DNA from: Chamaelirium japonicum
Lineage: Eukaryota > Streptophyta > Magnoliopsida > Liliales > Melanthiaceae
Length of the DNA stretch: 64,000 nucleotides
Assembly (NCBI GenBank): GCA_947650365.1
Contig: CANTAL010000004.1
Location: forward strand, 744,001-808,000
Reading direction: 5' to 3'
Below the pieces are notes generated by a model. It ran no database searches and had not been told where the DNA came from. It saw only the letters and a program-made list of their open reading frames with translations. The position numbers were made by a program, and so were the translations under genes. This document shows positions 3,758 through 54,966 of the stretch, piece after piece. How positions within the stretch are numbered: the stretch's first letter is position 1; each line of letters begins with the position of its first letter.

Positions 3758-4593
3758 TGTCACGCCCCGAATTCTGGACTAAGAAGAGAGGGTCCAGAAC
3801 TCAAGGGTGATATTTTGAAATGGAGGGAAATATAATTACAGAGATAACATAACGCGGAAGCAATAAATAATACTTAAATATCCATTCCACTAACAATACT
3901 CTTCAACATCTTACAGTCCAAATACGATAACAATAAATGGTAAAAACTAGACGAGTCCAGTTGTCACTCCTACCCTCGCAAATCCGGTGAAGAACTGCTA
4001 CTCCAACTGAAACAGCCACAGAGCTCCTAACGCTCCGTCCGAGAAAAAGAACCTGGGGGAGAGGAAAAACAACAAAACAACTCCCCCTGAGTATAAAACT
4101 CAGTGGTCCTAAAGAACAAGTCGGAGAACGCGAGAAGATATAAAACAACAATATACTTCTACGGTAAAGTAAAAATGCAAACATAATTGAGTAAGCAACA
4201 GAAGAAACTACTACTACCACAAGTATATACTAAGTGATCTATTCTACTATATCCAGTAATCCCATGTTATACGTTCAATGTCCTAACCGACAATTCCCTC
4301 ATGAGGTGTCCCATTCCACTTCATGAGAGAACCCACTTTCTAGGTCGTGCATAGTGGTGCAAAGCCCTAGGCTAAAGAGAAGAAAAGAAGAAAAGAAAGG
4401 AGGGGGAAACAAGTGTGAACCCCAAGTTTGAGCTAGGCTCCCGACTTGGTGGCGTTACTATTGGGTTCCTTTTTCGCAACAGGGGAACCACTCCGTTCCT
4501 TATGCTCGGGATACAGCCTCGAGACATACTACCCTAGTGGCCAAAAAGGGGGCTTGGTCTTTCACCACGGGGCACTCACACCCAACTTGCTTT

Positions 4594-5150
4594 CACTACA
4601 AAAAAAACAGTTATTACCGACGGACAATATCCGTCGGTAATATTAAAATGTCGTCGGTAATATTATATAGCGACGGAAGATATTTCCGTCGCTGGCTGTC
4701 GGGAAAGAAGGCGTCGGGGAAAACAATACGACGGACCAAATATTACCGTCGGTAATAATAATTAATACCGACGGTAATATTAACGCCGTCGGTAATATTT
4801 AATCAATTTAAAACTAATATAATATAGTATTGCCGACGAACTATAAGCATCCGTCGGTAATATATAAACATTTTACCGACGAGAATAGTTTATACTGTCG
4901 GTAATACTATATATATTACCGACAAATATATATATTACCCGTCGGTAATAATATATATTTTACCGACCAAATTAATATCACCGTCGGTAATACTATATAT
5001 ATTACCGACGGATATATATATTACCCGTCGGTAATAATATATATATTACCGACGGATATTATATGCCGTCGGCAACTCATTAATAATTTAAAAAAAATAA
5101 AAATATTATTACCGACGGAATAATTAATTTCCGTCGGTAATAAGTATGTT
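4594..5150. repeat. Left terminal inverted repeat and subterminal repeats of the CACTA element
   Basis: After the CACTA terminus, short motifs of the form TACCGACGG and CCGTCGGTAA recur every 10-30 bp, often as inverted pairs with an AT-rich spacer. In En/Spm, clustered subterminal motifs bind the TNPA protein and are needed for excision. Here the motif core CCGACGG/CCGTCGG plays the equivalent structural part; binding is inferred. The same core fills the right end of the element (about 23335-24069), which supports pairing of the two ends. Confidence 0.88.
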
Positions 5151-5561
5151 TTTTTTTTTAATAAATTTACCTAAATAATGTTATTTAATTCCTGTGATTC
5201 AATACCACAATATATTACCACAATTTATCAAAATATTACCACAATTTATAAAATATTACCTAAATTGATAAAAAATTACAGCAAATTATCAAATATTATA
5301 CCACAGTTCCCGGCCGACAATTATAGATAGAAGAAAAAATAACCATATATTACAAAACAATATTTACACAATCCAGAACTGAGAGATGATACATGTCCGA
5401 TCTCAACCACCAACGCCGGTGCTCTCATCGATCCCCTGACGCCGCCCTATCTCAACCACGCCCGCCCACCACCAACGCTGGTGCTCTCATCGATCCCCTG
5501 ACGCCGCCCTGCTCCTGCAATTAACATGTATTTGTTAAAAAAATGGTTTATATCTATAACT
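5151..5561. other. AT-rich spacer with a short GC-rich tandem duplication
   Basis: A gene-free stretch between the left subterminal repeats and the large satellite array. The first 250 bases are AT-rich with loosely repeated ATATTACCACAATTTAT elements. A GC-rich part follows in which 42 bp are present twice (5407-5448 and 5469-5510, 62 bp apart), differing at one visible base. Read leftward, TTGCAG followed by exon-like GC-rich sequence at 5514 looks like a splice acceptor, so this may be a 3' exon or 3' UTR of the transposon transcript. That reading is weak. Confidence 0.45.
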
Positions 5562-8500
5562 GAGTCTAAGCGTTAAAAAATGATAAGTTAGCGTATTTCG
5601 ATTTTGAAATAGGTTTGGATTCGATCCGATCGTCATCGGCTCGGCATCCGGTAATTTGAACTTGGAATTATTCCGTATTTCGGACTTGCGAGCGGGTTCT
5701 AATTGGATATTTGACCAATTTACGCTCCGATTCACCGATTTAGAGTCTAAGTGTTGGAAAATCATAAGTTAGCGTGTTTCGGATATGAAATAGGTTTGGA
5801 TTCGATCGGATCGTCATCGGATCGGCATCCGATAATTCGAACTTGGAATTATTCCGTATTTCGGACTTGCGAGCGGGTTCTAATTGGATATTTGACCAAT
5901 TTACGCTCCGATTCACCGATTTAGAGTCTAAGTGTTGGAAAATCATAAGTTAGCGTGTTTCGGATATGAAATAGGTTTCGATTCGATCGGATCGTCATCC
6001 GGTAATTCGAACTTGGAATTATTCCGTATTTCGGACTTGCGAGCGGGTTCTAATTGGATATTTGACCAATTTACGCTCCGATTCACCGATTTAGAGTCTA
6101 AGTGTTGGAAAATCATAAGTTAGCGTGTTTCGGATATGAAATAGGTTTGGATTCGATCCGATCGTCATCGGCTCGGCATCCGGTAATTCGAACTTGGAAT
6201 TATTCCGTATTTCGGACTTGCGAGCGGGTTCTAATTGGATATTTGACCAATTTACGCTTCGATTCACCGATTTAGAGTCTAAGTGTTGGAAAATCATAAG
6301 TTAGCGTGTTTCGGATATGAAATAGGTTTGGATTCGATCCGATCGTCATCGGCTCGGCATTCGATAATTCGAACTTGGAATTATTCCGTATTTCGGACTT
6401 GCGAGCGGGTTCTAATTGGATATTTGACCAATTTACGCTCCGATTCACCGATTTAGAGTCTAAGTGTTGGAAAATCATAAGTTAGCGTGTTTCGGATATG
6501 AAATAGGTTTGGATTCGATCGGATCGTCATCGGATCGGCATCCGATAATTCGAACTTGGAATTATTCCGTATTTCGGACTTGCGAGCGGGTTCTAATTGG
6601 ATATTTGACCAATTTACGCTCCGATTCACCGATTTAGAGTCTAAGTGTTGGAAAATCATAAGTTAGCGTGTTTCGGATATGAAATAGGTTTCGATTCGAT
6701 CGGATCGTCATCGGATCGGCATCCGGTAATTCGAACTTGGAATTATTCCGTATTTCGGACTTGCGAGCGGGTTCTAATTGGATATTTGACCAATTTACGC
6801 TCCGATTCACCGATTTAGAGTCTAAGTGTTGGAAAATCATAAGTTAGCGTGTTTCGGATATGAAATAGGTTTGGATTCGATCGGATCGTCATCGGATCGG
6901 CATCCGATAATTCGAACTTGGAATTATTCCGTATTTCGGACTTGCGAGCGGGTTCTAATTGGATATTTGACCAATTTACGCTCCGATTCACCGATTTAGA
7001 GTCTAAGTGTTGGAAAATCATAAGTTAGCGTGTTTCGGATATGAAATAGGTTTCGATTCGATCGGATCGTCATCGGATCGGCATCCGGTAATTCGAACTT
7101 GGAATTATTCCGTATTTCGGACTTGCGAGCGGGTTCTAATTGGATATTTGACCAATTTACGCTCCGATTCACCGATTTAGAGTCTAAGTGTTGGAAAATC
7201 ATAAGTTAGCGTGTTTCGGATATGAAATAGGTTTGGATTCGATCCGATCGTCATCGGCTCGGCATCCGGTAATTCGAACTTGGAATTATTCCGTATTTCG
7301 GACTTGCGAGCGGGTTCTAATTGGATATTTGACCAATTTACGCTCCGATTCACCGGTTTAGAGTCTAAGTGTTGGAAAATCATAAGTTAGCGTGTTTCGG
7401 ATATGAAATAGGTTTGGATTCGATCGGATCGTCATCGGATCGGCATCCGATAATTCGAACTTGGAATTATTCCGTATTTCGGACTTGCGAGCGGGTTCTA
7501 ATTGGATATTTGACCAATTTACGCTCCGATTCACCGATTTAGAGTCTAAGTGTTGGAAAATCATAAGTTAGCGTGTTTCGGATATGAAATAGGTTTCGAT
7601 TCGATCGGATCGTCATCGGATCGGCATCCGGTAATTCGAACTTGGAATTATTCCGTATTTCGGACTTGCGAGCGGGTTCTAATTGGATATTTGACCAATT
7701 TACGCTCCGATTCACCGATTTAGAGTCTAAGTGTTGGAAAATCATAAGTTAGCGTGTTTCGGATATGAAATAGGTTTGGATTCGATCCGATCGTCATCGG
7801 CTCGGCATCCGGTAATTCGAACTTGGAATTATTCCGTATTTCGGACTTGCGAGCGGGTTCTAATTGGATATTTGACCAATTTACGCTTCGATTCACCGAT
7901 TTAGAGTCTAAGTGTTGGAAAATCATAAGTTAGCGTGTTTCGGATATGAAATAGGTTTGGATTCGATCGGATCGTCATCGGATCGGCATCCGATAATTCG
8001 AACTTGGAATTATTCCGTATTTCGGACTTGCGAGCGGGTTCTAATTGGATATTTGACCAATTTACGCTCCGATTCACCGATTTAGAGTCTAAGTGTTGGA
8101 AAATCATAAGTTAGCGTGTTTCGGATATGAAATAGGTTTCGATTCGATCGGATCGTCATCGGATCGGCATCCGGTAATTCGAACTTGGAATTATTCCGTA
8201 TTTCGGACTTGCGAGCGAGTTCTAATTGGATATTTGACCAATTTACGCTCCGATTCACCGATTTAGAGTCTAAGTGTTGGAAAATCATAAGTTAGCGTGT
8301 TTCGGATATGAAATAGGTTTGGATTCGATCGGATCGTCATCGGATCGGCATCCGATAATTCGAACTTGGAATTATTCCGTATTTCGGACTTGCGAGCGGG
8401 TTCTAATTGGATATTTGACCAATTTACGCTCCGATTCACCGATTTAGAGTCTAAGTGTTGGAAAATCATAAGTTAGCGTGTTTCGGATATGAAATAGGTT

Positions 8501-11500
8501 TCGATTCGATCGGATCGTCATCGGATCGGCATCCGGTAATTCGAACTTGGAATTATTCCGTATTTCGGACTTGCGAGCGGGTTCTAATTGGATATTTGAC
8601 CAATTTACGCTCCGATTCACCGATTTAGAGTCTAAGTGTTGGAAAATCATAAGTTAGCGTGTTTCGGATATGAAATAGGTTTGGATTCGATCCGATCGTC
8701 ATCGGCTCGGCATCCGGTAATTCGAACTTGGAATTATTCCGTATTTCGGACTTGCGAGCGGGTTCTAATTGGATATTTGACCAATTTACGCTCCGATTCA
8801 CCGGTTTAGAGTCTAAGTGTTGGAAAATCATAAGTTAGCGTGTTTCGGATATGAAATAGGTTTGGATTCGATCGGATCGTCATCGGATCGGCATCCGATA
8901 ATTCGAACTTGGAATTATTCCGTATTTCGGACTTGCGAGCGGGTTCTAATTGGATATTTGACCAATTTACGCTCCGATTCACCGATTTAGAGTCTAAGTG
9001 TTGGAAAATCATAAGTTAGCGTGTTTCGGATATGAAATAGGTTTCGATTCGATCGGATCGTCATCGGATCGGCATCCGGTAATTCGAACTTGGAATTATT
9101 CCGTATTTCGGACTTGCGAGCGGGTTCTAATTGGATATTTGACCAATTTACGCTCCGATTCACCGATTTAGAGTCTAAGTGTTGGAAAATCATAAGTTAG
9201 CGTGTTTCGGATATGAAATAGGTTTGGATTCGATCCGATCGTCATCGGCTCGGCATCCGGTAATTCGAACTTGGAATTATTCCGTATTTCGGACTTGCGA
9301 GCGGGTTCTAATTGGATATTTGACCAATTTACGCTTCGATTCACCGATTTAGAGTCTAAGTGTTGGAAAATCATAAGTTAGCGTGTTTCGGATATGAAAT
9401 AGGTTTGGATTCGATCGGATCGTCATCGGATCGGCATCCGATAATTCGAACTTGGAATTATTCCGTATTTCGGACTTGCGAGCGGGTTCTAATTGGATAT
9501 TTGACCAATTTACGCTCCGATTCACCGATTTAGAGTCTAAGTGTTGGAAAATCATAAGTTAGCGTGTTTCGGATATGAAATAGGTTTCGATTCGATCGGA
9601 TCGTCATCGGATCGGCATCCGGTAATTCGAACTTGGAATTATTCCGTATTTCGGACTTGCGAGCGGGTTCTAATTGGATATTTGACCAATTTACGCTCCG
9701 ATTCACCGATTTAGAGTCTAAGTGTTGGAAAATCATAAGTTAGCGTGTTTCGGATATGAAATAGGTTTGGATTCGATCCGATCGTCATCGGCTCGGCATC
9801 CGGTAATTCGAACTTGGAATTATTCCGTATTTCGGACTTGCGAGCGGGTTCTAATTGGATATTTGACCAATTTACGTTTCGATTCACCGATTTAGAGTCT
9901 AAGTGTTGGAAAATCATAAGTTAGCGTGTTTCGGATATGAAATAGGTTTGGATTCGATCGGATCGTCATCGGATCGGCATCCGATAATTCGAACTTGGAA
10001 TTATTCCGTATTTCGGACTTGCGAGCGGGTTCTAATTGGATATTTGACCAATTTACGCTCCGATTCACCGATTTAGAGTCTAAGTGTTGGAAAATCATAA
10101 GTTAGCGTGTTTCGGATATGAAATAGGTTTCGATTCGATCGGATCGTCATCGGATCGGCATCCGGTAATTCGAACTTGGAATTATTCCGTATTTCGGACT
10201 TGCGAGCGGGTTCTAATTGGATATTTGACCAATTTACGCTCCGATTCACCGATTTAGAGTCTAAGTGTTGGAAAATCATAAGTTAGCGTGTTTCGGATAT
10301 AAAATAGGTTTGGATTCGATCCGATCGTCATCGGATCGGCATCCGATAATTCGAAGTTGGATTTATTCCGTATTTCGGACTTGCGAGCGGGTTCTAATTG
10401 GATATTTGACCAATTTACGCTCCGATTCACCGGTTTAGAGTCTAAGTGTTGGAAAATCATAAGTTAGCGTGTTTCGGATATGAAATAGGTTTGGATTCGA
10501 TCCGATCGTCATCGGCTCGGCATCCGGTAATTCGAACTTGGAATTATTCCGTATTTCGGACTTGCGAGCGGGTTCTAATTGGATATTTGACCAATTTACG
10601 CTTCGATTCACCGATTTAGAGTCTAAGTGTTGGAAAATCATAAGTTAGCGTGTTTCGGATATGAAATAGGTTTGGATTCGATCCGATCGTCATCGGATCG
10701 GCATCCGATAATTCGAAGTTGGAATTATTCCGTATTTCGGACTTGCGAGCGGGTTCTAATTGGATATTTGACCAATTTACGCTCCGATTCACCGATTTAG
10801 AGTCTAAGTGTTGGAAAATCATAAGTTAGCGTGTTTCGGATATGAAATAGGTTTGGATTCGATCCGATCGTCATCGGATCGGCATCCGATAATTCGAAGT
10901 TGGATTTATTCCGTATTTCGGACTTGCGAGCGGGTTCTAATTGGATATTTGACCAATTTACGCTCCGATTCACCGGTTTAGAGTCTAAGTGTTGGAAAAT
11001 CATAAGTTAGCGTGTTTCGGATATGAAATAGGTTTGGATTCGATCCGATCGTCATCGGCTCGGCATCCGGTAATTCGAACTTGGAATTATTCCGTATTTC
11101 GGACTTGCGAGCGGGTTCTAATTGGATATTTGACCAATTTACGCTTCGATTCACCGATTTAGAGTCTAAGTGTTGGAAAATCATAAGTTAGCGTGTTTCG
11201 GATATGAAATAGGTTTGGATTCGATCCGATCGTCATCGGCTCGGCATTCGATAATTCGAACTTGGAATTATTCCGTATTTCGGACTTGCGAGCGGGTTCT
11301 AATTGGATATTTGACCAATTTACGCTCCGATTCACCGATTTAGAGTCTAAGTGTTGGAAAATCATAAGTTAGCGTGTTTCGGATATGAAATAGGTTTGGA
11401 TTCGATCCGATCGTCATCGGATCGGCATCCGATAATTCGAACTTGGAATTATTCCGTATTTCGGACTTGCGAGCGGGTTCTAATTGGATATTTGACCAAT

Positions 11501-14500
11501 TTACGCTCCGATTCACCGATTTAGAGTCTAAGTGTTGGAAAATCATAAGTTAGCGTGTTTCGGATACCGATTTAGAGTCTAAGTGTTGGAAAATCATAAG
11601 TTAGCGTGTTTCGGATATGAAATAGGTTTGGATTCGATCGGATCGTCATCGGATCGGCATCCGATAATTCGAACTTGGAATTATTCCGTATTTCGGACTT
11701 GCGAGCGGGTTCTAATTGGATATTTGACCAATTTACGCTCCGATTCACCGATTTAGAGTCTAAGTGTTGGAAAATCATAAGTTAGCGTGTTTCGGATACC
11801 GATTTAGAGTCTAAGTGTTGGAAAATCATAAGTTAGCGTGTTTCGGATATGAAATAGGTTTGGATTCGATCGGATCGTCATCGGATCGGCATCCGATAAT
11901 TCGAACTTGGAATTATTCCGTATTTCGGACTTGCGAGCGGGTTCTAATTGGATATTTGACCAATTTACGCTCCGATTCACCGATTTAGAGTCTAAGTGTT
12001 GGAAAATCATAAGTTAGCGTGTTTCGGATATGAAATAGGTTTCGATTCGATCGGATCGTCATCGGATCGGCATCCGGTAATTCGAACTTGGAATTATTCC
12101 GTATTTCGGACTTGCGAGCGGGTTCTAATTGGATATTTGACCAATTTACGCTCCGATTCACCGATTTAGAGTCTAAGTGTTGGAAAATCATAAGTTAGCG
12201 TGTTTCGGATATGAAATAGGTTTGGATTCGATCCGATCGTCATCGGCTCGGCATCCGGTAATTCGAACTTGGAATTATTCCGTATTTCGGACTTGCGAGC
12301 GGGTTCTAATTGGATATTTGACCAATTTACGTTTCGATTCACCGATTTAGAGTCTAAGTGTTGGAAAATCATAAGTTAGCGTGTTTCGGATATGAAATAG
12401 GTTTGGATTCGATCGGATCGTCATCGGATCGGCATCCGATAATTCGAACTTGGAATTATTCCGTATTTCGGACTTGCGAGCGGGTTCTAATTGGATATTT
12501 GACCAATTTACGCTCCGATTCACCGATTTAGAGTCTAAGTGTTGGAAAATCATAAGTTAGCGTGTTTCGGATATGAAATAGGTTTCGATTCGATCGGATC
12601 GTCATCGGATCGGCATCCGGTAATTCGAACTTGGAATTATTCCGTATTTCGGACTTGCGAGCGGGTTCTAATTGGATATTTGACCAATTTACGCTCCGAT
12701 TCACCGATTTAGAGTCTAAGTGTTGGAAAATCATAAGTTAGCGTGTTTCGGATATAAAATAGGTTTGGATTCGATCCGATCGTCATCGGATCGGCATCCG
12801 ATAATTCGAAGTTGGATTTATTCCGTATTTCGGACTTGCGAGCGGGTTCTAATTGGATATTTGACCAATTTACGCTCCGATTCACCGGTTTAGAGTCTAA
12901 GTGTTGGAAAATCATAAGTTAGCGTGTTTCGGATATGAAATAGGTTTGGATTCGATCCGATCGTCATCGGCTCGGCATCCGGTAATTCGAACTTGGAATT
13001 ATTCCGTATTTCGGACTTGCGAGCGGGTTCTAATTGGATATTTGACCAATTTACGCTTCGATTCACCGATTTAGAGTCTAAGTGTTGGAAAATCATAAGT
13101 TAGCGTGTTTCGGATATGAAATAGGTTTGGATTCGATCCGATCGTCATCGGATCGGCATCCGATAATTCGAAGTTGGAATTATTCCGTATTTCGGACTTG
13201 CGAGCGGGTTCTAATTGGATATTTGACCAATTTACGCTCCGATTCACCGATTTAGAGTCTAAGTGTTGGAAAATCATAAGTTAGCGTGTTTCGGATATGA
13301 AATAGGTTTGGATTCGATCCGATCGTCATCGGATCGGCATCCGATAATTCGAAGTTGGATTTATTCCGTATTTCGGACTTGCGAGCGGGTTCTAATTGGA
13401 TATTTGACCAATTTACGCTCCGATTCACCGGTTTAGAGTCTAAGTGTTGGAAAATCATAAGTTAGCGTGTTTCGGATATGAAATAGGTTTGGATTCGATC
13501 CGATCGTCATCGGCTCGGCATCCGGTAATTCGAACTTGGAATTATTCCGTATTTCGGACTTGCGAGCGGGTTCTAATTGGATATTTGACCAATTTACGCT
13601 TCGATTCACCGATTTAGAGTCTAAGTGTTGGAAAATCATAAGTTAGCGTGTTTCGGATATGAAATAGGTTTGGATTCGATCCGATCGTCATCGGCTCGGC
13701 ATTCGATAATTCGAACTTGGAATTATTCCGTATTTCGGACTTGCGAGCGGGTTCTAATTGGATATTTGACCAATTTACGCTCCGATTCACCGATTTAGAG
13801 TCTAAGTGTTGGAAAATCATAAGTTAGCGTGTTTCGGATATGAAATAGGTTTGGATTCGATCCGATCGTCATCGGATCGGCATCCGATAATTCGAACTTG
13901 GAATTATTCCGTATTTCGGACTTGCGAGCGGGTTCTAATTGGATATTTGACCAATTTACGCTCCGATTCACCGATTTAGAGTCTAAGTGTTGGAAAATCA
14001 TAAGTTAGCGTGTTTCGGATACCGATTTAGAGTCTAAGTGTTGGAAAATCATAAGTTAGCGTGTTTCGGATATGAAATAGGTTTGGATTCGATCGGATCG
14101 TCATCGGATCGGCATCCGATAATTCGAACTTGGAATTATTCCGTATTTCGGACTTGCGAGCGGGTTCTAATTGGATATTTGACCAATTTACGCTCCGATT
14201 CACCGATTTAGAGTCTAAGTGTTGGAAAATCATAAGTTAGCGTGTTTCGGATACCGATTTAGAGTCTAAGTGTTGGAAAATCATAAGTTAGCGTGTTTCG
14301 GATATGAAATAGGTTTGGATTCGATCGGATCGTCATCGGATCGGCATCCGATAATTCGAACTTGGAATTATTCCGTATTTCGGACTTGCGAGCGGGTTCT
14401 AATTGGATATTTGACCAATTTACGCTCCGATTCACCGATTTAGAGTCTAAGTGTTGGAAAATCATAAGTTAGCGTGTTTCGGATACCGATTTAGAGTCTA

Positions 14501-14973
14501 AGTGTTGGAAAATCATAAGTTAGCGTGTTTCGGATATGAAATAGGTTTGGATTCGATCGGATCGTCATCGGATCGGCATCCGATAATTCGAACTTGGAAT
14601 TATTCCGTATTTCGGACTTGCGAGCAGGTTCTAATTGGATATTTGACCAATTTACGCTCCGATTCACCGATTTAGAGTCTAAGTGTTGGAAAATCATAAG
14701 TTAGCGTGTTTCGGATATGAAATAGGTTTGGATTCGATCCGATCGTCATCGGATCGGCATCCGATAATTCGAAGTTGGATTTATTCCGTATTTCGGACTT
14801 GCGAGCGGGTTCTAATTGGATATTTGACCAATTTACGCTCCGATTCACCGGTTTAGAGTCTAAGTGTTGGAAAATCATAAGTTAGCGTGTTTCGGATATG
14901 AAATAGGTTTGGATTCGATCCGATCGTCATCGGATCGGCATCCGGTAATTCGAACTTGGAATTATTCCGTATT
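5562..14973 (-). repeat. 181-bp satellite, large array inside the CACTA element
   Basis: About 51 tandem monomers, the last one partial, with a period of 181 bp measured from the recurring GAGTCTAAG (5562, 5743, 5924 and so on). One early monomer is 11 bp short (5924 to 6094). Five intervals are 232 bp because a 51-bp piece is duplicated (around 11546, 11778, 14001, 14233 and 14465). Monomers are highly alike and fall into recurring variants marked by GGATC/CCGATC and CGATAA/CGGTAA differences, which build higher-order repeats. Strand is given as minus because the array in 16978-18533 and the one after 62694 read the opposite way. Each monomer holds a 68-codon frame on the minus strand. Since 181 is not a multiple of three, the frames do not run on, and I regard them as non-coding. 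Confidence 0.96.
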
Positions 14974-15149
14974 TAAAAGAAAAACAGAGGCTACATCATT
15001 ACCATGAGAGAGAGAGTGACCATTTACGATTCGATTTACCGATTTATAGTCTAAGTGTTGGAAAATCATAAGTGTGATAATATGATCAAAACTCAAATTA
15101 GTAAGATTCATATTTTTTGCTAATATTATAAAGATTAGTAAGTACCTGA
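14974..15149 (-). other. Spacer between the TNPA-like gene and the large satellite array
   Basis: Contains a GA-rich run (about 15004-15018) and a diverged partial 181-bp monomer (about 15022-15073), so the array edge is ragged. Directly after the stop codon of the TNPA-like gene, reading leftward, the sequence TCAG followed by GTACTTAC fits a 5' splice site (intron would start at 15145). This would put the whole satellite array in a 3' UTR intron ending near 5515. This is a reading of consensus sites only. Confidence 0.4.
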
Positions 15150-16849
15150 TCATGAGGATGAGCCACCGCTAGACCGGCTTATGAATTCATTAAATTTACG
15201 CTCCAGTTCCCTGCGAGCTTCTCTTTCCTCATCGAGGGCCTTCTTCTCCGCCTCAACCCTCTGCTCGAGGGCCTGTCTCTGCTCTCGCTCCGCCTCCATC
15301 CTCTGCTCGAGGGCCTGCCTCTGCTCTCGCTCCGCGTCTAGCGCAGACTGCAGCTGAGTGATAGCACCGGTCTGGGTGTCCCGTGCCCTCGAGCGCATAC
15401 CCTCTCGTCCAAAGTAGGAGGAGGGCGTGACTCCAAGGCCCGTACAGAGGACACGGCCGTGCGTGGCAGGTCTCAGCACAGTATCCATCGCTGAGTCGAC
15501 AGATACTGAGCTGGAGGAGGAGCCGGCCTCGCCCGACGGGGTCACCATAAGTCGCATCCTCTCCTATATAAAAACAACCAATGATATTCAATGATATTTT
15601 ATGGCATATGTATAAGAATATATTAACAGTAATTTAATTACTTACCACTTGCGAGGCAACCCTGTCGTCCAGAAATGCCCCATCGATACCCCGCCTCCTA
15701 GAGGCCTCAAAAAGGTCAATCCTATTAGGCTCGTGGCCCAAGGACTGTGTCTGTTGGACATATAAAATAAATAGACGAGTTAATATAACATGTATAGAGC
15801 TTTAAATAATAACAATGTTTGTATCATTTACCAGCTGCTGGGCAAGCTGGGGCATGGAGGTCCTCCCCTTCACTGGAGCAGGTGTCGTCGAGGCACTTCT
15901 ATTCTGCTTGCCTATAGCAGATTTATTCTGTGCAATCGATTAAATTTTGAAACATCAATACAAATTTTTAGTATAACATTAAAACAAGTACGAATCAACA
16001 AAATTATAATTATACCTGAAAGTTAGGGGTGGCCCAGTGAGCGACCAAAAACTGTAGAATGTGTAGCGGTGGCGCGTCTCTCGTCCCAGCCGCAGCCTGT
16101 ACCTCCTCAGCCGGCTGGCCGACCAAGTAACCGTAGAGCTTGTAGAGCTCGTGACGGTAATCCCTGTACCGCTCACCCATCGTCTTCCACAAGTCCTCCC
16201 GATGGGTGTCGGTTTCCATGTTCTCCCATTTAAATTTCTCCTGTAAAATCAATTTAGAAACAAGTCATTTTATCAAATCAAATTATAAAGAAGTACGATA
16301 TTATTCTAAAATGCTTTAATGAAACTAACGTACCAAAAACTGCTGATACATCCTCTCCTTATAGGATGCATCAATGTTCTTCCACCCCCTTAACCCCACA
16401 ATCGGGGCATTCCTCTCCTCCCGTACTATCATGTCGACCCACGTGGCGGCGTCAGAAGCGTGCTCGCCCACAAAGGTATGGCCGCTCCACTGTAGGGACA
16501 GCGGCTCGCGTAAGGCCGACAAGCGCCGGGCCGTCGTCACGCCCCGGTCGCCTACGTACCTGGTCGACCCTGCAAATAAAATATACATCAGTACTGAAGA
16601 AGTATTTACAACATGTATAAAACTTTAGATCTAAACATTACCTGTGGGCGTAGACGCTGCAGCCGAGTGCTGAGCAGTGCTCGAAGCTCCGGAGGCTGCG
16701 ACCACAGCAGGAGCTGGTGTGGAGAGAGGAACAGCACTACCAGATCCGGACGGCTCAGCCTCGGACCCTGGGGTGGCAGCCGGAGCGCTCTCAGCTACCC
16801 TACCCCTGCCTCTGCCTCTGCCTCTACGAACATATGACCGTGATGCCAT
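15150..16849 (-). CDS. TNPA-like Transposase_24 (Ptta/En/Spm) protein of the CACTA element
   Basis: Second gene of the CACTA element. Six exons fit consensus splice sites and keep frame throughout: 16849-16642, 16569-16334, 16240-16016, 15927-15832, 15750-15646 and 15563-15150, giving 427 aa. The N-terminus is Arg/Gly-rich (residues about 5-16), followed by a Pro/Ala/Ser-rich linker. The middle (about 100-290) has the Trp/Lys/Arg-rich pattern, the 'NKS..KQNR' stretch and the 'GHEPNRIDLFEASRRR' stretch that I associate with the plant Transposase_24 family. The C-terminus (about 345-415) is a strongly charged Glu/Arg/Gln coiled coil containing a 14-residue duplication. In En/Spm the matching protein binds subterminal motifs and aids excision; that role is inferred here. 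The start codon directly follows a good acceptor (TTGTTTCAG), so an upstream non-coding exon is likely, perhaps shared with the TNP2 gene. No break is visible. Confidence 0.8.
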
Positions 16850-16977
16850 CTGAAACAATTTAATTTACATATGAAACAGTAAGATTTAAGATTTACATAT
16901 GAAACAATATGAAACAGTTTGATTTACATATGAAACAGTATGATTTACATATGAAACAATATAAAACAATATGAACC
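16850..16977. repeat. Short tandem repeats upstream of the TNPA-like gene
   Basis: Repeats of about 18-25 bp built on ATGATTTACATATGAAAC, degenerating to AATATAAAACAATATGAA. The same motif reappears on the other side of the small satellite array at 18540-18690. The last copies are mixed with fragments of the 181-bp satellite (AACCCGCT appears at about 16974 and 16999). The stretch lies in the presumed intron or promoter region just upstream of the TNPA-like start codon. Confidence 0.75.
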
Positions 16978-18533
16978 CGCTCGCAATATAAAACAATATG
17001 AACCCGCTTGCAAGTCCGAAATACGGAATATAATTCCAAATTCCAAGTTCCAACACTTAGACTCTAAATCGGTGAATCGGAGCGTAAATTGGTCAAATAT
17101 CCAATTAGAACCCGCTCGCAAGTCCGAAATACGGAATAATTCCAAGTTCGAAATACCGGATGCCGAGCCGATGACGATCGGATCGAATCCAAACCTATTT
17201 CATATCCGAAACACGCTAACTTATGATTTTCCAACACTTAGACTCTAAATCGGTGAATCGGAGCGTAAATTGGTCAAATATCCAATTAGAACCCGCTCGC
17301 AAGTCCGAAATACGGAATAATTCCAAGTTCGAATTACCGGATGCCGAGCCGATGACGATCGGATCGAATCCAAACCTATTTCATATCCGAAACACGCTAA
17401 CTTATGATTTTCCAACACTTAGACTCTAAATCGGTGAATCGGAGCGTAAATTGGTCAAATATCCAATTAGAACCCGCTCGCAAGTCCGAAATACGGAATA
17501 ATTCCAACTTCGAATTACCGGATGCCGATCCGATGACGATCCGATCGAATCCAAACCTATTTCATATCCGAAACACGCTAACTTATGATTTTCCAACACT
17601 TAGACTCTAAATCGGTGAATCGGAGCGTAAATTGGTCAAATATCCAATTAGAACCCGCTCGCAAGTCCGAAATACGGAATAATTCCAAGTTCGAATTACC
17701 GGATGCCGAGCCGATGACGATCGGATCGAATCCAAACCTATTTCATATCCGAAACACGCTAACTTATGATTTTCCAACACTTAGACTCTAAATCGGTGAA
17801 TCGGAGCGTAAATTGGTCAAATATCCAATTAGAACCCGCTCGCAAGTCCGAAATACGGAATAATTCCAACTTCGAATTACCGGATGCCGATCCGATGACG
17901 ATCCGATCGAATCCAAACCTATTTCATATCCGAAACACGCTAACTTATGATTTTCCAACACTTAGACTCTAAATCGGTGAATCGGAGCGTAAATTGGTCA
18001 AATATCCAATTAGAACCCGCTCGCAAGTCCGAAATACGGAATAATTCCAACTTCGAATTACCGGATGCCGATCCGATGACGATCCGATCGAATCCAAACC
18101 TATTTCATATCCGAAACACGCTAACTTATGATTTTCCAACACTTAGACTCTAAATCGGTGAATCGGAGCGTAAATTGGTCAAATATCCAATTAGAACCCG
18201 CTCGCAAGTCCGAAATACGGAATAATTCCAAGTTCGAATTACCGGATGCCGAGCCGATGACGATCCGATCGAATCCAAACCTATTTCATATCCGAAACAC
18301 GCTAACTTATGATTTTCCAACACTTAGACTCTAAATCGATGAATCGGAGCGTAAATTGGTCAAATATCCAATTAGAACCCGCTCGCAAGTCCGAAATACG
18401 GAATAAATCCAACTTCGAATTATCGGATGCCGATCCGATGACGATCCGATCGAATCGAAACCTATTTCATATCCGAAACACGCTAACTTATGATTTTCCA
18501 ACTCTTAGACTCTAAGTCGGTGAATCGGTCGGA
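16978..18533 (+). repeat. 181-bp satellite, small array in opposite orientation inside the CACTA element
   Basis: About eight monomers of the same 181-bp satellite as 5562-14973, but inverted. Full monomers start near 17223 and repeat every 181 bp to 18490. The left edge (16978-17222) is scrambled, with a truncated monomer joined out of register. Two variants partly alternate (17223, 17404, 17585, 17766), suggesting an incipient 362-bp dimer. The array lies between the 3' end of the TNP2 gene and the start of the TNPA-like gene. Confidence 0.95.
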
Positions 18534-18703
18534 TCGTAAATCGGTGAAACGGTATGATTTACATATGAAACGGTATGATTTATATATGAATCGGTGAAAC
18601 GGTATGATTTACATATGAAACAATATGATATACATATGAAACAATATGATTTATATATGAAACAATTTGATTTAAATATGAAACAATTTGATTTACATAC
18701 GGT
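18534..18703. repeat. Short tandem repeats downstream of the TNP2 gene
   Basis: Copies of an approximately 18-20 bp motif built on ATGATTTACATATGAAAC, between the last partial 181-bp monomer and the TNP2 stop codon. They match the repeats at 16850-16977, so the small satellite array is bracketed by the same short repeat on both sides. This would be the 3' UTR of the TNP2 gene or an intron of the TNPA-like transcript. Confidence 0.75.
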
Positions 18704-21700
18704 CTAGTCATTTTCTGTCTCATCTCTGTCACTCTCATCGCTTCCCTCTTCTATTATTTGATCTGCATTCGCTGTCCAGTTTATATTGTCGACATCTTCA
18801 TTTTCGTCGTGCACTGCGTCGACAATGATTATCTCATCATTCTGGTATGCATCCAAATCATCATCGACGACCCCCGCATCCTTGTCTCCCATGTCGTAAA
18901 AATCTCTGGGTGGTGACCTGACTACAATTTGCCAACCTGGAGAGGTATTATCCGGTGCATAAAATATCTGTTGCGCTTGAGAGGCAAGAATGAATGGATC
19001 TTCATATTGGGTATTCAATCTCTTGGCAGTGTTGATGCTGATAAAACCGTATTTGTCGACATTATAACCAGTCCCGCGATTATTAACATCATACCAATCG
19101 CATTTGAATAATACGATCCGATTTTGGCCAAGGAATTTAATCTCGAGAATCTCGTTGAGGACGCCGTAGAAGTCGATATTTTCTAATTCTTCTTGCTCAC
19201 CGTTGACGACAACCCCACTATTTTGGGTTCTTCGTGATTTTTCACTATCTTTCGTCCGAAATCTATAACTGTTCACGATATAACCATCGTACGATATTGC
19301 GTCTTGCAAAGGACTACAAGATAAGCGCCAGAGATCCTCATTCATCAGCGGATCGTGGTTGTCGTGCAGCTCATGTGCCTATAATAACCACACGACATTC
19401 ATGATATGAACACATAATTATTGTTCGGTAATGGATGTCAATGAAATTCAGTAATGATGTGAATACTTACGTGTTTCTCGAACCACGATGGGAATTCACG
19501 ATCATGAATTTGGGGAGCATTTCGAATACCCCGATTATTAATGATGGCTTTATGCTTCCTGTTTTACCGGTTATGAATTAGATTATAATTAGCACATATA
19601 CTTAATGAATGGACTGAAAGAATGAGTAAATTAATGATCGTAAAATGCTTACTCAATGAATGGCCACACTTCATCACATTGGCGCAACACATACATATGT
19701 GCCTGTTGAATCTCATCTACAGACAATCGACGGGTTTTGCCTCCTCCTACAGGTCTACCCATTTCGGCAAATATAGACAGACCCCCATCGAAGTCTATTG
19801 GACCACCGTCATAGTTCCGCTCAAGTTGATTGAATCGCGTGTCTATACCATGTAGGTATCTTGAGCAGAATGTTAGACATTCTTCTGCTAGGTATCCTTC
19901 AGCAATTGATCCCTCCGGACGACTTTTATTACGAACATATGATTTCAATGTTCGCAAGTACCTAATTTGAGAAAAAAATATTTGTATGAATATATCAAGA
20001 ACGATCAAATACATTGTGCGAATGAGACGAGACGATTACCTCTCGATAAAATACATCCACCGGTAATGAACTGGGCCGCCGAGTTTGGCCTCATTTGCCA
20101 AGTGAACGGTCAAATGCACCATGACATCAAAGAATGAAGGTGGAAATATCATCTCTAACTTGCACAATGTGAGCGCAATATCCCTCTCCATCTGTTCAAG
20201 TTGGTCCACTCTAAGTACCTTCGAGCACAACTGTCTGAAAAAAGTGCTGAGCTCAATTAACGGACCGGACACCTCTTCGGTTAAATTCCCACGTATAGCA
20301 AGAGATAACAATCGCTGCATAAGAACATGACAATCGTGGCTCTTTAATCCAGACAACTTCCGGCCGTTCTCTTGCACGCATCGTGCGATATTCGAAGAAT
20401 AACCGTCTGGCGTTTTCACAGACCGTAGGAATGCACATAAGGCTGCCTTTTGCTGTGAGCTCATGGTGTAGCATGCAACTGGCAACACATACTTATCCCC
20501 AATCTCTTGGGGATGAAGTGATTTTCGGATGCCCAACTCCTTAAGATCGAGACGAGATTTAAGATTATCCTTCGTCTTACCGTCGAGATTCAGCAGTGTT
20601 CCTATAATGTTGTCACACACATTTTTCTCAATATGCATGACATCCAAGTTATGCCGCAAGAGTAGGCTGCTCCAGTACGGTAGTTTAAAGAAAATACTCT
20701 TCTTCTTCCAGTTATGCTCACGCGTTGAATCTTCATGCGTTCTCTTCTTTTTACCTTTTCCAAGTGCCACGGCATCAAGCTGATCCAATTCGCACAAGAC
20801 TTCTACCCCCGAAAGCTGCTCCGGGGCCTTTGCAAGTTCCTTCTTGCCGTTGAAAGCTCTTTTGTTCTGCCTCCACTTATGGCCGTCAACAAGGAATCTT
20901 CGATGGCCCATATAACAGAACTTGCCTCCGTTCTTCAATCGTAATGAATCTGTCTCCTTATTGCATGTAGGGCACGCCAATTTTCCTTTAGTACTCCACC
21001 CGGATAAGTTGGCATATGCAGGAAAATCGTTGATGGTCCATAGAAGTGCCGCATGCATCCGAAAATTCTGGCGCAACGAGGCATCATACGTATCGGCCCC
21101 AACTTCCCATAACTCGTTCAACTCCTCAATCAACGGCTGCAAGTAAACGTCAATATCATTACCAGGCGACCTGGGTCCGGGAATGAGCAAGGAGAGCATT
21201 GTGTATGGCTTTTTTAAGCACATCCAGGGAGGCAAATTGTATGGAACTAGGACAACTGGCCAAATGCTGTACGACACACTCATATTCCCAAAGGGATTGA
21301 AGCCATCGCTAGCAAGCCCTAACCTGACGTTGCGAACTTCACATGCGAATTCAGGATATGTATGATCAAAATCTTTCCACGTCAGAGAGTCGGCCGGATG
21401 TCTCATAATCCCGTCATCTGTACGTTCTCGTGCATGCCACCTCATGTGCTCAGCAGTCTTCGATGACATAAACAACCTCTGAAGCCTGTCCCTGAGCGGG
21501 AAGTATAGGAGAACCTTTGCAGATACATTTTTCTTCCTTCGACTGGTACTAGACTCGGCATCCGTCTCTTTATATCTCGTTGCTCCGCATATGTGGCATG
21601 ACCGCGCATGTTCGTACTCTTTCCGGTACAACATACAATCGTTCACGCATGCATCAATTTTCTCATAACCCAGACCGAGATCTTTAATTGTCTTCTTCGC

Positions 21701-22309
21701 CTCGTAGAATGATTTCGGTACTGTCTCACCCATAGGAAAAGCCTCTTTCAGCAACTCTACCAACATATTAAATGACTTATTACTCCAACCATTGAGGCAC
21801 TTCAAATGAAGAAGCTTTACAGTGAAAGAGAGTTTTGAAAACTTCTCACACCCCGGGTATAGAGGTTGTTCGGCATCTTTAAGCAATCTGTAGAACTTGT
21901 CCGCTTCGATATTGGGCTGATCACCTGACGGTGTTTCCGTGCCTATTCCACCTTGCAAATCATGTATCATACCCTGCATATCATCGTCATCGTCTGTATT
22001 AATATTATCATCAGCGATCACTGTGTTTGAAGTTTCACCGTGAGCTGCCATGGGGACTGCATCTAGCTCCTCACCGTGCGAGAACCAACGGGTATAGGTA
22101 ACGTCAATGCCACGCATTACCAGATCAACCTCACATTCCTCTCGAACCTTCCTAATCACCCTTCCGCAGTCTATACAGGGACACACAATTTTTCCATCAA
22201 GCGGTGCAAGACGCTCAAATGCAAAATCCAGAAATTTCATGACTCCTTCTCTGTACTCTTGGCTCATGCGATTCGAATTACGCATCCAACTCTTATCGAT
22301 CGAAGACAT
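18704..22309 (-). CDS. TNP2-type CACTA transposase
   Basis: Catalytic transposase of the CACTA element, expected to cut at the CACTA ends in the nucleus. Four exons fit consensus splice sites and stay in frame: 22309-20040, 19961-19653, 19558-19471 and 19378-18704, giving 1113 aa, a usual length for the family. Residues 1-80 match the transposase-associated N-terminal domain (DKSWM start, CPCIDC cysteines, RWFSHGE end). The Transposase_21 core spans about 265-565; D335 in SDGFNPF, D385 or D387 in NDIDVYL and E561 in HIEKN are candidate DDE residues of the CMC superfamily. A DUF4218 region crosses the first intron (about 630-830, with 'RPEGSIAEGYLAEECL'). DUF4216 follows in exon 4 (about 910-1030), then an acidic Asp/Glu-rich tail. 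The start is supported by the conserved N-terminus. I see no stop, frameshift or missing domain. Confidence 0.92.
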
Positions 22310-23060
22310 CTTCGTCTATCTGGCTATACAACACCTGACATATAATTTCAAACAATGTTATAAGACTCCGCACAATTTCGGTTTCGGTTCCCGGGTATGG
22401 AACACCGAACCAAAACTTCTACAGGCCATCCACATCCCTAATGGATCAATCCATGTGGTTCTAGAGGACATTGGGGTAGTAGGAGATGCAAAGCAAGGGG
22501 ACAAAGTGGAATGCGGTGCTAATGTCCAAGCGAAGCTAGCTCCCGGGCTTCGCCGACAAAGAGGCTTAATTAAGAGGAATCCAGTCCGCTCGCTCGATCT
22601 TTATACATGTGTAATTATACATATGCGTATACACATATATGTATAATTATGCATATACATGTATAATTATATATATACATGAATAGTAAATACGAATTTA
22701 TACATGTGTAATACATATACATATATGTATGTGTATTTCTATACGTATACATGTATGTGTACCCTTATATGTATAGTTAGCTTTAATTAAGCATGGTAGA
22801 AGCTAAATTTACATAGCATGTTTCTCTTTCATATAACATTAAGAAACCCTAAATTTTCCATTATGAAGCTTGCAAGAAACATGGAGGGAACCCTAATGAA
22901 AATTGTACTTCAAGCATGTTAGTAAAAACTAGTTTTACAAGCATGAACTAGTAAACATTTCCTTGATGAAAAACCCAACTTTCATCGAGTAAAACCATAA
23001 ATTTGTTATCAAACTAAACCTAATCATGGTCCTAAACCATTCAAGGGCAGTAGAGCTTAC
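22310..23060 (-). other. Probable 5' UTR intron of the CACTA transcript
   Basis: No convincing gene. Reading leftward, a strong donor (CTTGTAAG then GTAAGCTC) lies at 23060, and acceptors GTATAG (exon from 22323) or TGTCAG (exon from 22334) lie just before the TNP2 start codon. About 730 bp would thus be an intron in the leader. It contains a tract of alternating TA/CA/TG steps (about 22600-22780) and, at about 22378-22417, a stretch resembling the subterminal part of the hAT element at 43156-43725. A 179-codon frame on the plus strand over 22107-22646 overlaps the TNP2 exon and looks fortuitous. Confidence 0.5.
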
Positions 23061-23295
23061 CTTACAAGCGGCCGGCCGGGGGAGAGAGAGAGAGGGCCGG
23101 GAGGCCGGGGAGGGGCGGAGGTCGGGAGGGGGATGGGTGGCCGGGAGGGGGATGGGTAGCCGGAGGGGATCTCGGGGCTGCCGGAGGGGATCTCGGGGCT
23201 GCCGGAGGGGGACGGGGTCGCCGGGGGGTCGGGTCGGTGAGAGAGAGAGAGAGATTGAGAGAGGGGGGGCGCGCGCCGGAGAGATCGAAACAGAA
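23061..23295 (-). promoter_or_regulatory. CT-rich non-coding leader exon of the CACTA transcript
   Basis: On the minus strand this is a C/T-rich sequence with CTCTCT runs and repeated CCCCTCCGG blocks. It has no ATG before the donor at 23060. It begins about 30 bases downstream of the TATA box at 23321-23330. That fits a 5' UTR exon of the TNP2 transcript, and possibly of the TNPA-like one. The plus strand is correspondingly rich in runs of G. Confidence 0.55.
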
Positions 23296-23320
23296 GAATC
23301 AAAGAAGATCTCGACTGTTT

Positions 23321-23330
23321 TTATTTATAA
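23321..23330 (-). promoter_or_regulatory. TATA box of the CACTA promoter
   Basis: On the minus strand the sequence TTATAAATAA occurs once at the junction between the right subterminal repeats and the CT-rich leader. Its place, just inside the subterminal repeats and about 1 kb before the TNP2 start codon, matches the En/Spm promoter layout. In En/Spm the TNPA-binding repeats overlap the promoter, and autoregulation by the TNPA-like protein would be expected here too (inference). Confidence 0.6.
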
Positions 23331-23334
23331 CAGG

Positions 23335-24069
23335 GTTTTTACCGACGGACATTTTATATCCCGTCGGTAAAACTAAATTTTTTACCGACGGTAAATATAT
23401 ATCCGTCGGTAAAACTTCGTTTCGTCGGGACATTTTACCGACGGCAATTTAATTACCGTCGGTATTGTACCGACGGATAGATAAATTCCGTCGGTATAAT
23501 CCCGACCAAACTTCAAGCTCAATTTTTTCCAGAGGCTTGGTTTGGCACCCTGAGAACTGTCGGAACATTTTACCGACGGAAACTTAATTACCGTCGGTAC
23601 CGTGCCGACGGAAATATAATTTCTGTCGGTCTAATTAGTTATACCGACGGAACTTTTAAGTCCGTCGGTAAATAGTACGACGAAACTCTCCCTTCTATTT
23701 TTTTCCAGAGGCTCGGTTTTTACACTGAGTTTCGTCGGGACAATATTACCGACGGACATTTTATTACCGTCGGTATATTGCCGACGGAGATATTATGGCT
23801 GTCGGTAACATTGTTTATACCGACGGAACTACAATTTCCGTCGGTACAATATCACGACGATGACATTTTGCCGACGGTTTATATGTAACCGTCGGTATAA
23901 AGTATATTACCGACGGTAAATATGTATACCGTCGGTATAAATATGCAAAGAAAATTAAAAAAATTGAAGTTATAATACCGACGGATATTATTGTCACCGT
24001 CGGTAAAAAGTGTATTATTACCGACGGTGATAATAATGTCCGTCGGTAAAGACCCTATTTCTTGTAGTG
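23335..24069. repeat. Right subterminal repeats and terminal inverted repeat of the CACTA element
   Basis: Dense TACCGACGG/CCGTCGGTA motifs in inverted pairs up to the TAGTG end at 24069. Two longer related blocks include TTTTTTCCAGAGGCT (about 23524 and 23700), so the region grew by local duplication. The outermost 15 bases are the inverted counterpart of the left end, with a few mismatches. Confidence 0.9.
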
Positions 24070-25085
24070 TTTCTATGGGGTCTAAACCCCAGGATTAGAT
24101 CACTCTACCTCAGTTTCCCTGCAGGAAACAACCCGTGACCTAACCCCGTGATCCTCCCTACTCGTTTCGGTCTGTGCACAACTAGGGGTTCACTTACCTA
24201 CGATGTGCACGCGGATCTATACCGAGCCAGTCGGGCAACTAGGTTGCTACGACGCCAAGACATTTCAGAAGTAAAACTAACCCCATAAAATCACATAAAT
24301 CACATGTTCTTCTAAACGACCAGTCTCTAAACAATTTACATTTTAAGTAAATAGAACAAAAGGATAATATCTATCAACTTGACAATTCAAAAGGTATATG
24401 CCCATGATTTATGACTAAGCATGCAACGTATCAAGAGAATAGTTTATTTTTAATTAAAATATCTACATGCAGTACGACTAACCTGTTGGAGCGTGGCTAT
24501 CGACTGCGAGTCGCTTCACTCCTAGTCCAAAATAGTCTGAACAAAAATGAATTGCATAAGAAACTAAGGCTAAGATGTTTGGATCCAAAATCGAACCGGG
24601 TTTGGTTCAGATTGGATCGGGTTCAGCTCATGTTGGGTCGGTCTCATGGGTCAGTTTTAATCACACTTGACCCGAGTCGAGTCAGACCTAGACTAGGAAT
24701 CGATCTAATCAATTTGTAGAGGTGGGGTGCTTAAAAATAACCATGGTGTAAGTATTGTATAGGAGTCGTATTGATTAAAATGGTGTAACATAATTTATTG
24801 GAGGGGCCCGGGGGTGCTTGTAATAAAAGCCAAAAGGTGCAGTTATAAGGAAAAAGGGTGTATAAAATATGAAAGTGTAATTAAAAAATAAAGGGTAGAT
24901 CTAGTTGGGGTAACCATTCAAAAGAGAAGGGGTCATTGCTGATCGGTTTTTGGGGATTTCTCTTTGGAAATCCTTGCCGGTGGAGCGGGAGGCGCTCCAC
25001 TCGGCCGTCAACCGGGCGGTCAGTAGGAGGGCAAGGGTCGTCGGAGCCGCCGGCAAGGTGTGATAGGTCGTCCGAGAGAGGTGGG

Positions 25086-54927: not shown

Positions 54928-54966
<39 letters not shown>

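Follow-up and report, generated by a model that had tools for sequence, protein, structure and literature searches.

A CACTA transposon with two oppositely oriented 181-bp satellite arrays and its dispersed copies in the Chamaelirium japonicum genome

The CACTA element and its insertion site

The sequence analysed here, termed the window, is a stretch of 64,000 nucleotides of Chamaelirium japonicum (contig CANTAL010000004.1, positions 744,001 to 808,000), and coordinates are counted from its first letter. It contains a complete CACTA (En/Spm) element of 19,476 bp with its genes on the minus strand, placing the 5′ end at 24069 and the 3′ end at 4594. The features are as follows.

3758–4593: left part of the host unit (2,605 bp, TG...CA, solo-LTR-like, target site duplication (TSD) GTATC), the target of the CACTA insertion
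4591–4593: left TSD of the element, TTT
4594–24069, minus strand: complete CACTA element
4594–5300: 3′ terminal inverted repeat and subterminal CCGACGG/CCGTCGG repeats
5562–15073, plus strand: 181-bp array 1 (9,512 bp), containing partial duplications of 51 bp and one exact tandem duplication of 2,455 bp
15146–16849, minus strand: TNPA-type gene, six exons, 427 aa, Transposase_24 (PF03004)
16850–17047: one edge of array 2, made up of broken monomer pieces and a 21-bp minisatellite that belongs to the element
17048–18549, minus strand: 181-bp array 2, 1,502 bp, inverted with respect to array 1, within the 21-bp minisatellite and between the two genes
18545–18699: opposite edge of array 2, again 21-bp minisatellite
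18704–22309, minus strand: TPase (TNPD-type) gene, four exons, 1,113 aa, with Transpos_assoc, Transposase_21, DUF4218 and DUF4216
23331–24069: 5′ subterminal repeats and terminal inverted repeat
24070–24072: right TSD of the element, TTT
24073–25841: right part of the host unit (2,605 bp, TG...CA, solo-LTR-like)
62694–64000, minus strand: array 3, i.e. the array 1 of an older and decayed member of this CACTA family, in reverse orientation; it runs past the window to its own 3′ end, and its left side is cut by an LTR-like unit

The terminal inverted repeats begin with CACTA. The word CACTACAA is found at 4594 and, inverted, at 24069, and nowhere else in the window; by itself it is not above chance, and the ends are marked in addition by the TSD and the subterminal repeats. 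The TTT at 4591–4593 is repeated at 24070–24072, a 3-base match with a chance probability of ~0.017. The CCGTCGGTA motif has 36 exact occurrences (0.29 expected) confined to 4615–5139 and 23340–24048, and both ends thus carry the many short subterminal repeats that characterize the superfamily. Joined together, the flanks of the element give a TG...CA unit of 2,605 bp that is bounded by a separate 5-bp TSD, GTATC, and lies within a 23-bp satellite. This is the pattern expected of a single insertion.

Both transposase genes are open across their full length, and the element has the Transposase_21 (TNPD-type) and Transposase_24 (TNPA-type) genes that together characterize CACTA elements. The window copy is probably able to move itself. 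The closest protein relatives are 60% identical for the TPase and 57% identical for copia.

Arrays 1 and 2 together comprise 11,014 bp, i.e. 56.6% of the 19,476 bp, or 60.9 monomer lengths. The initial annotation had described CACTA ends with a TTT duplication, enclosing two transposase genes and ~11 kb of satellite in two arrays that make up more than half of the element; all of this is borne out, and its estimate of about 59 monomers is close to the measured value. The inversion of array 2 relative to array 1, and the third array from 62694, were absent from that annotation. A kb-size array of a 170–180-bp monomer sits inside the element near its 3′ end, an arrangement of the type described in C. 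quinoa. Array 1 includes an identical run of 2,688 bp at an offset of 2,455 that is hard to assemble, and its exact internal duplications could be assembly errors.

The 181-bp monomer has no similarity above shuffled controls to the rest of the element or the window. The best match (28.3 bits) equals the maximum of 40 shuffles and is located at the edge of array 2, and the monomer was on this basis rejected as a recognisable piece of the element's present sequence. One 26-nt monomer core had no matches in a viral and none in a prokaryote collection. In a tree of 58 monomers (of 68 pieces, those of 165–185 bp being retained) no inner branch reached the support mark, and the tree was not used for the history.

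Copies of the element across the assembly

Searches covered the window's own 1.52-Gb assembly. Seven complete copies were read: that of the window and those on contigs C315, C43, C10, C5 (two copies) and C3. All begin with CACTACAAAAAA and finish with TTTCTTGTAGTG, and all have terminal inverted repeats beginning CACTA, with exact 3-bp TSDs (TTT, AGG, TCT, AAA, ATC, AGG and AGG). Each carries array 1 in the plus and array 2 in the minus orientation. The TNPA gene is open in all seven, and the TPase is open to 1,113 aa in six. The gene and 3′-end regions differ by ~0.18% per pair, and 8,039 aligned gene and terminal columns contain 51 variable columns (gaps counted), 48 of them private to one copy; C43 was excluded from three parts of the backbone where it differs by insertions or deletions, and the seven copies were drawn from the best matches to the array edge of the window, which biases them toward the youngest branch. 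The near-identity of these dispersed copies suggests transposition activity.

Genome-wide, 1,008 exact matches were found to the 28-nt join of element and array, and 939 to the 25-nt join at the opposite end of array 1; the reversed control of each gave none. The same array is thus present in several elements. The initial annotation had suggested that a mobile element would seed arrays at new loci, and had set as its own test whether any other CACTA copy carries the 181-bp monomer. Such copies exist, as the seven complete copies with TSDs and the 1,008 joins demonstrate, so that the rest of the genome supports dispersal.

On contig C1 we analysed the location of the satellite more closely. The first 100 exact monomer cores form nine clusters (grouped by eye), and all nine lie within CACTA copies. 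Loci resembling array 3 behave in the same way: among the matches listed, both large ones that were followed (on C12 and C2) are in CACTA copies, as are all five of the C1 loci below 106.9 Mb (compared by eye). No satellite outside the element was found among the loci checked, which hold a small part of the total satellite; these loci presumably represent the genome. For 5′ ends up to 106.9 Mb, an array join on the correct strand lies within 40 kb of 38 of the 39 intact 5′ ends, compared with 3 of 39 for the wrong-strand control, and one 5′ end has no nearby join. Some joins are unpaired. With right joins taken up to the same 106.9 Mb, 37 of 100 left joins lack an exact right partner at a distance of up to 40 kb, and 29 of 90 right joins lack a left partner, likely due to mutation, truncation and old subfamilies. 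The first 100 listed C1 joins span 0.5–106.8 Mb, one 10-Mb stretch holding 24 of them (Kolmogorov–Smirnov test for uniformity, p = 0.107). The description of the satellite as centromere-sized holds for its length only; these listed C1 joins are dispersed.

Array length varies between copies. Array 1 measures 2.75 to 9.5 kb in the seven complete copies, and 19.4 kb in an eighth copy (on C2), of which ~10 kb was read in five stretches, all of it satellite. The 63 join pairs on C1 give 60 distinct lengths of 1,455–19,017 bp; they use 61 right joins, so that up to two pairs are possibly wrong, and lengths above ~13 kb may contain later insertions. Loss of CpG sites also differs. Counting only monomers of 165–185 bp, array 3 of the old copy shows C-to-T changes at 25 of 187 CpG sites, array 1 at 2 of 1,436 and array 2 at none of 224; restricting the count to 181-bp monomers gives 40 of 1,280 sites for the C12 copy, which is older, and 10 of 1,376 for that on C2.

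Array 3 was considered as a free satellite, but this was overturned by the DNA just past the window, which contains a CACTA join and 3′ end. The join in this old copy is identical to that of the window element, and its first monomer is of the same odd kind.

Probable acquisition and spread of the satellite

The first nine C1 arrays that bear the monomer core, and array 3, all lie in family copies, and the old copy has the same join. A single acquisition before the branches split, followed by spread by transposition, is thus the most likely history. We consider it very probable that the window holds a recently mobile CACTA element with complete coding capacity, its satellite having been acquired once and then carried to ~1,000 dispersed loci. 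The CACTA lineage would have gained the 181-bp array between the last gene and the 3′ end, and a second, inverted array between the two genes, before the family divided into younger and older groups. Cut-and-paste transposition would since have taken the arrays to their dispersed loci. Monomers were most likely gained and lost between copies by unequal exchange or slippage, while copies that no longer move would decay and lose CpG sites.

Could the structure be a misassembly of two CACTA ends with an unrelated satellite array? The duplications in array 1 are of a kind that invites such error, but seven complete copies share this architecture, the joins are found ~1,000 times, and the flanks of the window copy fit together into a single host unit that has a TSD of its own; we regard an artefact as extremely improbable. 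Spread of the copies within large segmental duplications is equally hard to credit. One such pair does exist, as C9:832700–836699, among the listed matches to array 3, shares 97.85% identity with the array-3 locus across 4 kb, but the seven complete copies have matching TSDs, and comparison of their flanks found no match between any copies. Repeated capture of a separate genomic satellite by different CACTA copies has a precedent, capture being how the C. quinoa case has been explained (PMC8978399), and array 2 looks like an inserted piece, lying inside the element's 21-bp minisatellite with partial monomers at its edge. Against this, the join is base-identical in 1,008 places and in an old diverged copy, no free source array was found among the C1 clusters, all nine of which, taken in order of position, are in elements, and the same three of the seven copies are grouped by a shared backbone variant, by the 51-bp units and by the start of array 2. 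Repeated capture is therefore very improbable.

A different question is where the satellite came from. It may have been born inside the element by tandem amplification of the element's own sequence, which concerns the origin only and is compatible with the single-acquisition history. This would accord with the failure to find the satellite outside the element in the loci checked, and transposon-born arrays have been published for Tetris (PMC4079207) and in Lathyrus (PMC7004042); the monomer, however, has no counterpart elsewhere in element or window that scores above shuffled controls. We hold such a birth to be a real possibility, though somewhat the less probable one. It is rather unlikely, if conceivable, that a satellite without independent life in the genome has become a selected working part of the transposon. 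Young copies and one older-group copy share the inverted arrays around the TNPA gene, and 38 of the 39 intact 5′ ends on C1 have an array join nearby even though array length varies freely. A function in cis (as spacer, insulator or protein binding site) is conceivable for the arrays, as is one through a hairpin RNA that shapes silencing of the element.

Comparison with known systems

It has long been asked how satellites reach new sites in a genome. The single-acquisition history, in which 181-bp tandem-repeat DNA travels as transposon cargo, is supported here, and the spread can be traced as such. With ~1,000 joins, each having a countable array in its own surroundings, array growth and shrinkage per transposition become measurable. 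It can also be asked whether free arrays ever grow from the element, and why the satellite of young transposons keeps CpG sites that old copies lose.

In the open-licence literature the only CACTA element that we recognised with a long internal satellite array is that of C. quinoa, and no paper on satellite and CACTA with '181 bp' was found. In C. quinoa a CACTA-like element holds 5,550 bp of captured satDNA, arrayed as 171-bp monomers; four elements are named, arrays are 'very often' inside or near CACTA, and the FISH signal is dispersed (PMC8978399). The initial view of the present element as unusual is tempered accordingly. The two systems have in common CACTA ends (near-complete in C. quinoa), a Transposase_21 gene, a kb-size array between coding region and 3′ end, and several array-bearing elements. 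They differ in that C. quinoa has one array of 5,550 bp whereas here there are two inverted arrays of up to 19.4 kb, and four elements are named there, with arrays inside or near CACTA, whereas here the exact joins number 1,008 and the loci checked show no array outside CACTA. The transposase genes here, moreover, are full-length and open. Kinship of the monomers was rejected for want of similarity above chance: the best score of the 181-bp monomer against the 171-bp monomer (a 169-letter query) was 14.8 bits, whereas 30 shuffles had a median of 16.6.

Three other systems resemble this one more distantly. The Cg_HINE elements of Crassostrea gigas are Helentrons with satellite-like arrays as their central part, and like the present family have such arrays dispersed in the genome inside a DNA transposon (PMC7492417). 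They are non-autonomous oyster elements, in contrast to a coding CACTA with kb-size arrays. Tetris of Drosophila virilis is a foldback transposon with ~220-bp tandem repeats (PMC4079207), again tandem repeats within a DNA transposon; it is non-autonomous, carries the repeats in its terminal inverted repeats and has given rise to satellite arrays, whereas here the loci checked show no free arrays. In Lathyrus sativus, short and expanding satellite arrays occur in dispersed LTR-retrotransposons (PMC7004042). Satellites thus live as arrays in dispersed transposons in both plants. The array-bearing retrotransposons of Lathyrus are reportedly Ogre elements. Expansion there is mainly in the primary constrictions, whereas here copies along contig C1 vary in array length.

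Organization of the element and its insertion site

The CACTA element begins and ends with CACTACAAAAAA and TTTCTTGTAGTG, with TTT on each flank, and all 36 occurrences of the subterminal motif CCGTCGGTA fall in the two end regions (0.29 expected). Its components are:

4594-24069, CACTA element of 19,476 bp, genes on the minus strand
5562-15073, plus strand, array 1 of the 181-bp satellite, between the TNPA-type gene and the element 3′ end
16849-15146, minus strand, second (TNPA-type) gene, six exons, 427 aa
17048-18549, inverted, array 2, between the two genes, with the 21-bp minisatellite of the element on either side
22309-18704, minus strand, TPase (TNPD-type) gene, four exons with GT-AG introns, 1,113 aa

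The TPase exons match Transpos_assoc, Transposase_21, DUF4218 and DUF4216, and the protein is 50-52% identical to annotated Ananas, Persea and Lotus proteins across most of its length; of the six relatives compared, the fourth is 51% and the fifth 48% identical, while the sixth aligned piecewise. The 427-aa protein matches Transposase_24 (E = 7e-16).

Together the arrays comprise 11,014 bp, or 56.6% of the element, and the monomers of the two arrays have a mean likeness of 97.7%. Array 1 contains an exact tandem duplication of 2,455 bp (a 2,688-bp identical run), a further exact run of 1,447 bp at an offset of 1,448, and 51-bp partial duplications. Comparison of the 181-bp monomer with the rest of the element and the window gave no match exceeding those of shuffled controls.

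Removal of the element in silico joins 3758-4593 to 24073-25841 as a 2,605-bp unit that starts with TG, ends with CA and has GTATC on both flanks (five matching bases have a chance probability of about 0.0016). Outside this unit a 23-bp satellite resumes, with 75 of 80 joined bases matching the array elsewhere. The flanks thus rejoin as a unit bounded by a target-site duplication (TSD), and therefore the CACTA entered a solo-LTR-like unit that was itself inserted in the satellite array. It is one insertion and no chimera.

The 23-bp satellite (GAATTAGAATGGATCGTACGAAT), long and variable, occupies 1-3757 and 25842-41670, enclosing a nest of insertions; its CpG observed/expected ratio is 2.2-2.4. 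Beyond it lie two minus-strand members of a single copia family (41662-46500 and 48649-62010), the second interrupted at 51948-60801 by an LTR-type element whose 2.9-kb direct repeats are 98.2% identical and whose TSD is ATGAC. Two open reading frames in the inner region of this LTR-type element gave no significant Pfam match, so that it is probably non-autonomous. An LTR-like unit at 62011-62693 (TGTGGG...CCCACA), whose TSDs do not match, links copia sequence to an older satellite array and is perhaps the product of LTR-LTR recombination. Its join with that array is seen again, at 97% identity, at positions 831877-832777 of contig C9 of the same assembly (G000).

Complete copies and variation in array length

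The 1.52-Gb assembly, in which the window is G000:C16:744001-808000, was searched with the two monomers that open array 1, one of them the odd edge monomer. The best 40 of 1,894 first-look candidates, that of the window among them, were 99-100% identical over this query. We read six further copies in full, giving a sample of seven. Each of the seven has complete ends and an exact 3-bp TSD, and in all of them the parts follow one another as 3′ end, array 1 in plus orientation, TNPA, array 2 in minus orientation, TPase and 5′ end; no match was found between the flanks of any two. TNPA is open in every copy; TPase has 1,113 aa in six, ending at 1,052 in one copy on C5. Over 6,017 bases of the 3′ end, TNPA and TPase, any two copies are separated by 7 to 14 substitutions (mean 10.9, 0.18%). 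Of the 51 columns that vary across the whole backbone, 48 do so in one copy alone, a star-like pattern. The plant substitution rate is about 1e-8 per site and year; at this rate the age would be on the order of 100,000 years for these copies, which were chosen among the best matches and so are biased to the youngest branch.

Two of these copies have individual features. The TPase intron of the window copy has four additional bases (19629-19632) found in it alone among the seven. The copy on C43 (L012-L014) has a 5′ region that differs from that of other young copies, matching over 137 bp at 100% and then over just 248 bp at 89%, with a 90% match at the 5′ end; this perhaps arose by recombination with another branch.

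Array lengths in the seven copies are 9,512, 5,648, 5,207, 4,381, 4,845, 5,648 and 2,752 bp for array 1 and, in the same order, 1,502, 1,321, 1,269, 778, 1,140, 778 and 1,321 bp for array 2. The first monomer is the same in all seven; the interior order differs through gain and loss of monomers. The window, C43 and one C5 copy have in common a backbone variant, the presence of 51-bp units within array 1 and the way in which array 2 begins, and therefore the arrays look to have been inherited together with the element. Eleven copies sized from the positions of search matches have an array 1 of 2,752-9,512 bp. Pairing of exact joins between element and array on C1 (63 pairs from the 100 left joins listed, two right joins being used twice) gave 1,455 to 19,017 bp, with a median of 5,803 bp and 60 distinct values. 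In a C2 copy 19,401 bp separate the join and the TNPA gene, and about 10 kb of this, read in five stretches, is satellite.

Distribution and age of the satellite

Exact matches in the genome number 1,008 for the 28-nt join between element and array 1, 939 for the 25-nt join next to TNPA and 423 for 30 nt of the young 5′ end; the reversed-pattern control gave zero in each case. The best 40 of 1,750 first-look TNPA candidates were all full-length and printed as 100%. A 26-nt core of the monomer occurs 30,722 times. Taking the 0.94 cores per 181 bp measured in the seven copies, this corresponds to about 5.9 Mb of satellite. There are 30.5 cores per exact join, and the seven copies have 34 each on average, so that roughly the whole of the satellite could belong to copies of this kind. 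The estimate is approximate, since the core is often missing from old monomers. Among 39 intact young 5′ ends on C1, 38 have an array join on the correct strand at a distance of up to 40 kb, against 3 of 39 in the wrong-strand control, and therefore derivatives lacking an array are rare or absent among them. Of the 100 joins listed, 24 lie at 80-90 Mb of C1, compared with 5-13 in each other full 10-Mb stretch. On C12, two 600-bp probes at 63264000 and 63342000 (L031 and L037), chosen to locate array edges, matched other CACTA copies at 98-100% identity, which suggests that copies are common there.

No 181-bp satellite was found outside CACTA copies in the loci checked (on C1, C2 and C12, and array 3 of the window). 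Array 3 (62694-64000, minus strand) was considered as free satellite and rejected, since the adjoining DNA (L027) leads to a CACTA 3′ end: the array runs on, broken by a 3.4-kb insert, to this end (75-89% identity), which has its own CACTA terminus at extended coordinate 69894. The array join is the same as in young copies and the first monomer is of the same odd kind. Array 3 is part of an old CACTA copy cut by the LTR-like unit. The insert in its array (extended 64887-68263) ends in an A-run and is LINE-like.

Among the first 100 cores listed on C1 (0.42-5.27 Mb, grouped by eye, the last cluster incomplete), nine of nine clusters lie within CACTA copies, five placed by exact joins and four by reading 3′ ends; two of the join-placed clusters are array 2, about 2.1 kb beyond the join. 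Among the satellite matches listed, five C1 loci lie below 106.9 Mb: four are accompanied, on the expected strand and at no more than about 3 kb, by an exact join, and the fifth by the element 3′ end; the C12 and C2 loci are also within copies. A C9 locus, also listed, duplicates the array 3 locus at 97.85% identity.

C>T changes affect 25 of 187 CpG sites in array 3; the counts for arrays 1 and 2 are 2 of 1,436 and 0 of 224. With array 3's own consensus as reference the CpG counts are the same, and non-CpG C>T changes in array 3 are 4 of 884. An older C12 copy has 40 of 1,280 at CpG, and the C2 copy 10 of 1,376. On these counts, arrays of stopped copies age by CpG loss; those of mobile copies either remain fresh or have been homogenised recently.

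The C12 copy and those at 0.42, 5.08 and 5.28 Mb of C1 have 82-88% identical 3′ ends, a common rearrangement and the same array position; they form an older group. At 0.42 Mb, cores on the opposite strand lie about 2.1 kb beyond array 1, as array 2 would give. It thus seems that both arrays are older than the division into young and old copies, one locus being the basis for array 2.

Proposed mechanism and comparison with known systems

The arrays are most likely passengers of an autonomous CACTA, whose lineage they most likely entered once, and the element most likely carries them along to every new site. Unequal exchange, slippage or gap repair within the repeats could have produced the changes in length. 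The scarcity of array-less derivatives may result from the youth of the copies, or may reflect some use of the array.

A precedent is published for C. quinoa, where a CACTA element of 16,523 bp holds, close to its 3′ end, a 5,550-bp array built of a 171-bp monomer (PMC8978399). The array is reported in further elements and is dispersed by FISH, and the authors proposed capture of the satellite followed by its spread (PMC8978399). The long array within a CACTA is common to both systems. Satellite-like arrays are described in other transposons of oyster (PMC7492417), fly (PMC4079207) and Lathyrus (PMC7004042); several satellites of wheat and barley are reported as similar to CACTA sequence, and a Chenopodium minisatellite as derived from a CACTA transposase fragment. 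Beyond these published cases, the present family adds the join that is identical in young and old copies and the restriction of the satellite to the element in the loci checked, together with the scale, the inverted pair of arrays and the full-length open genes.
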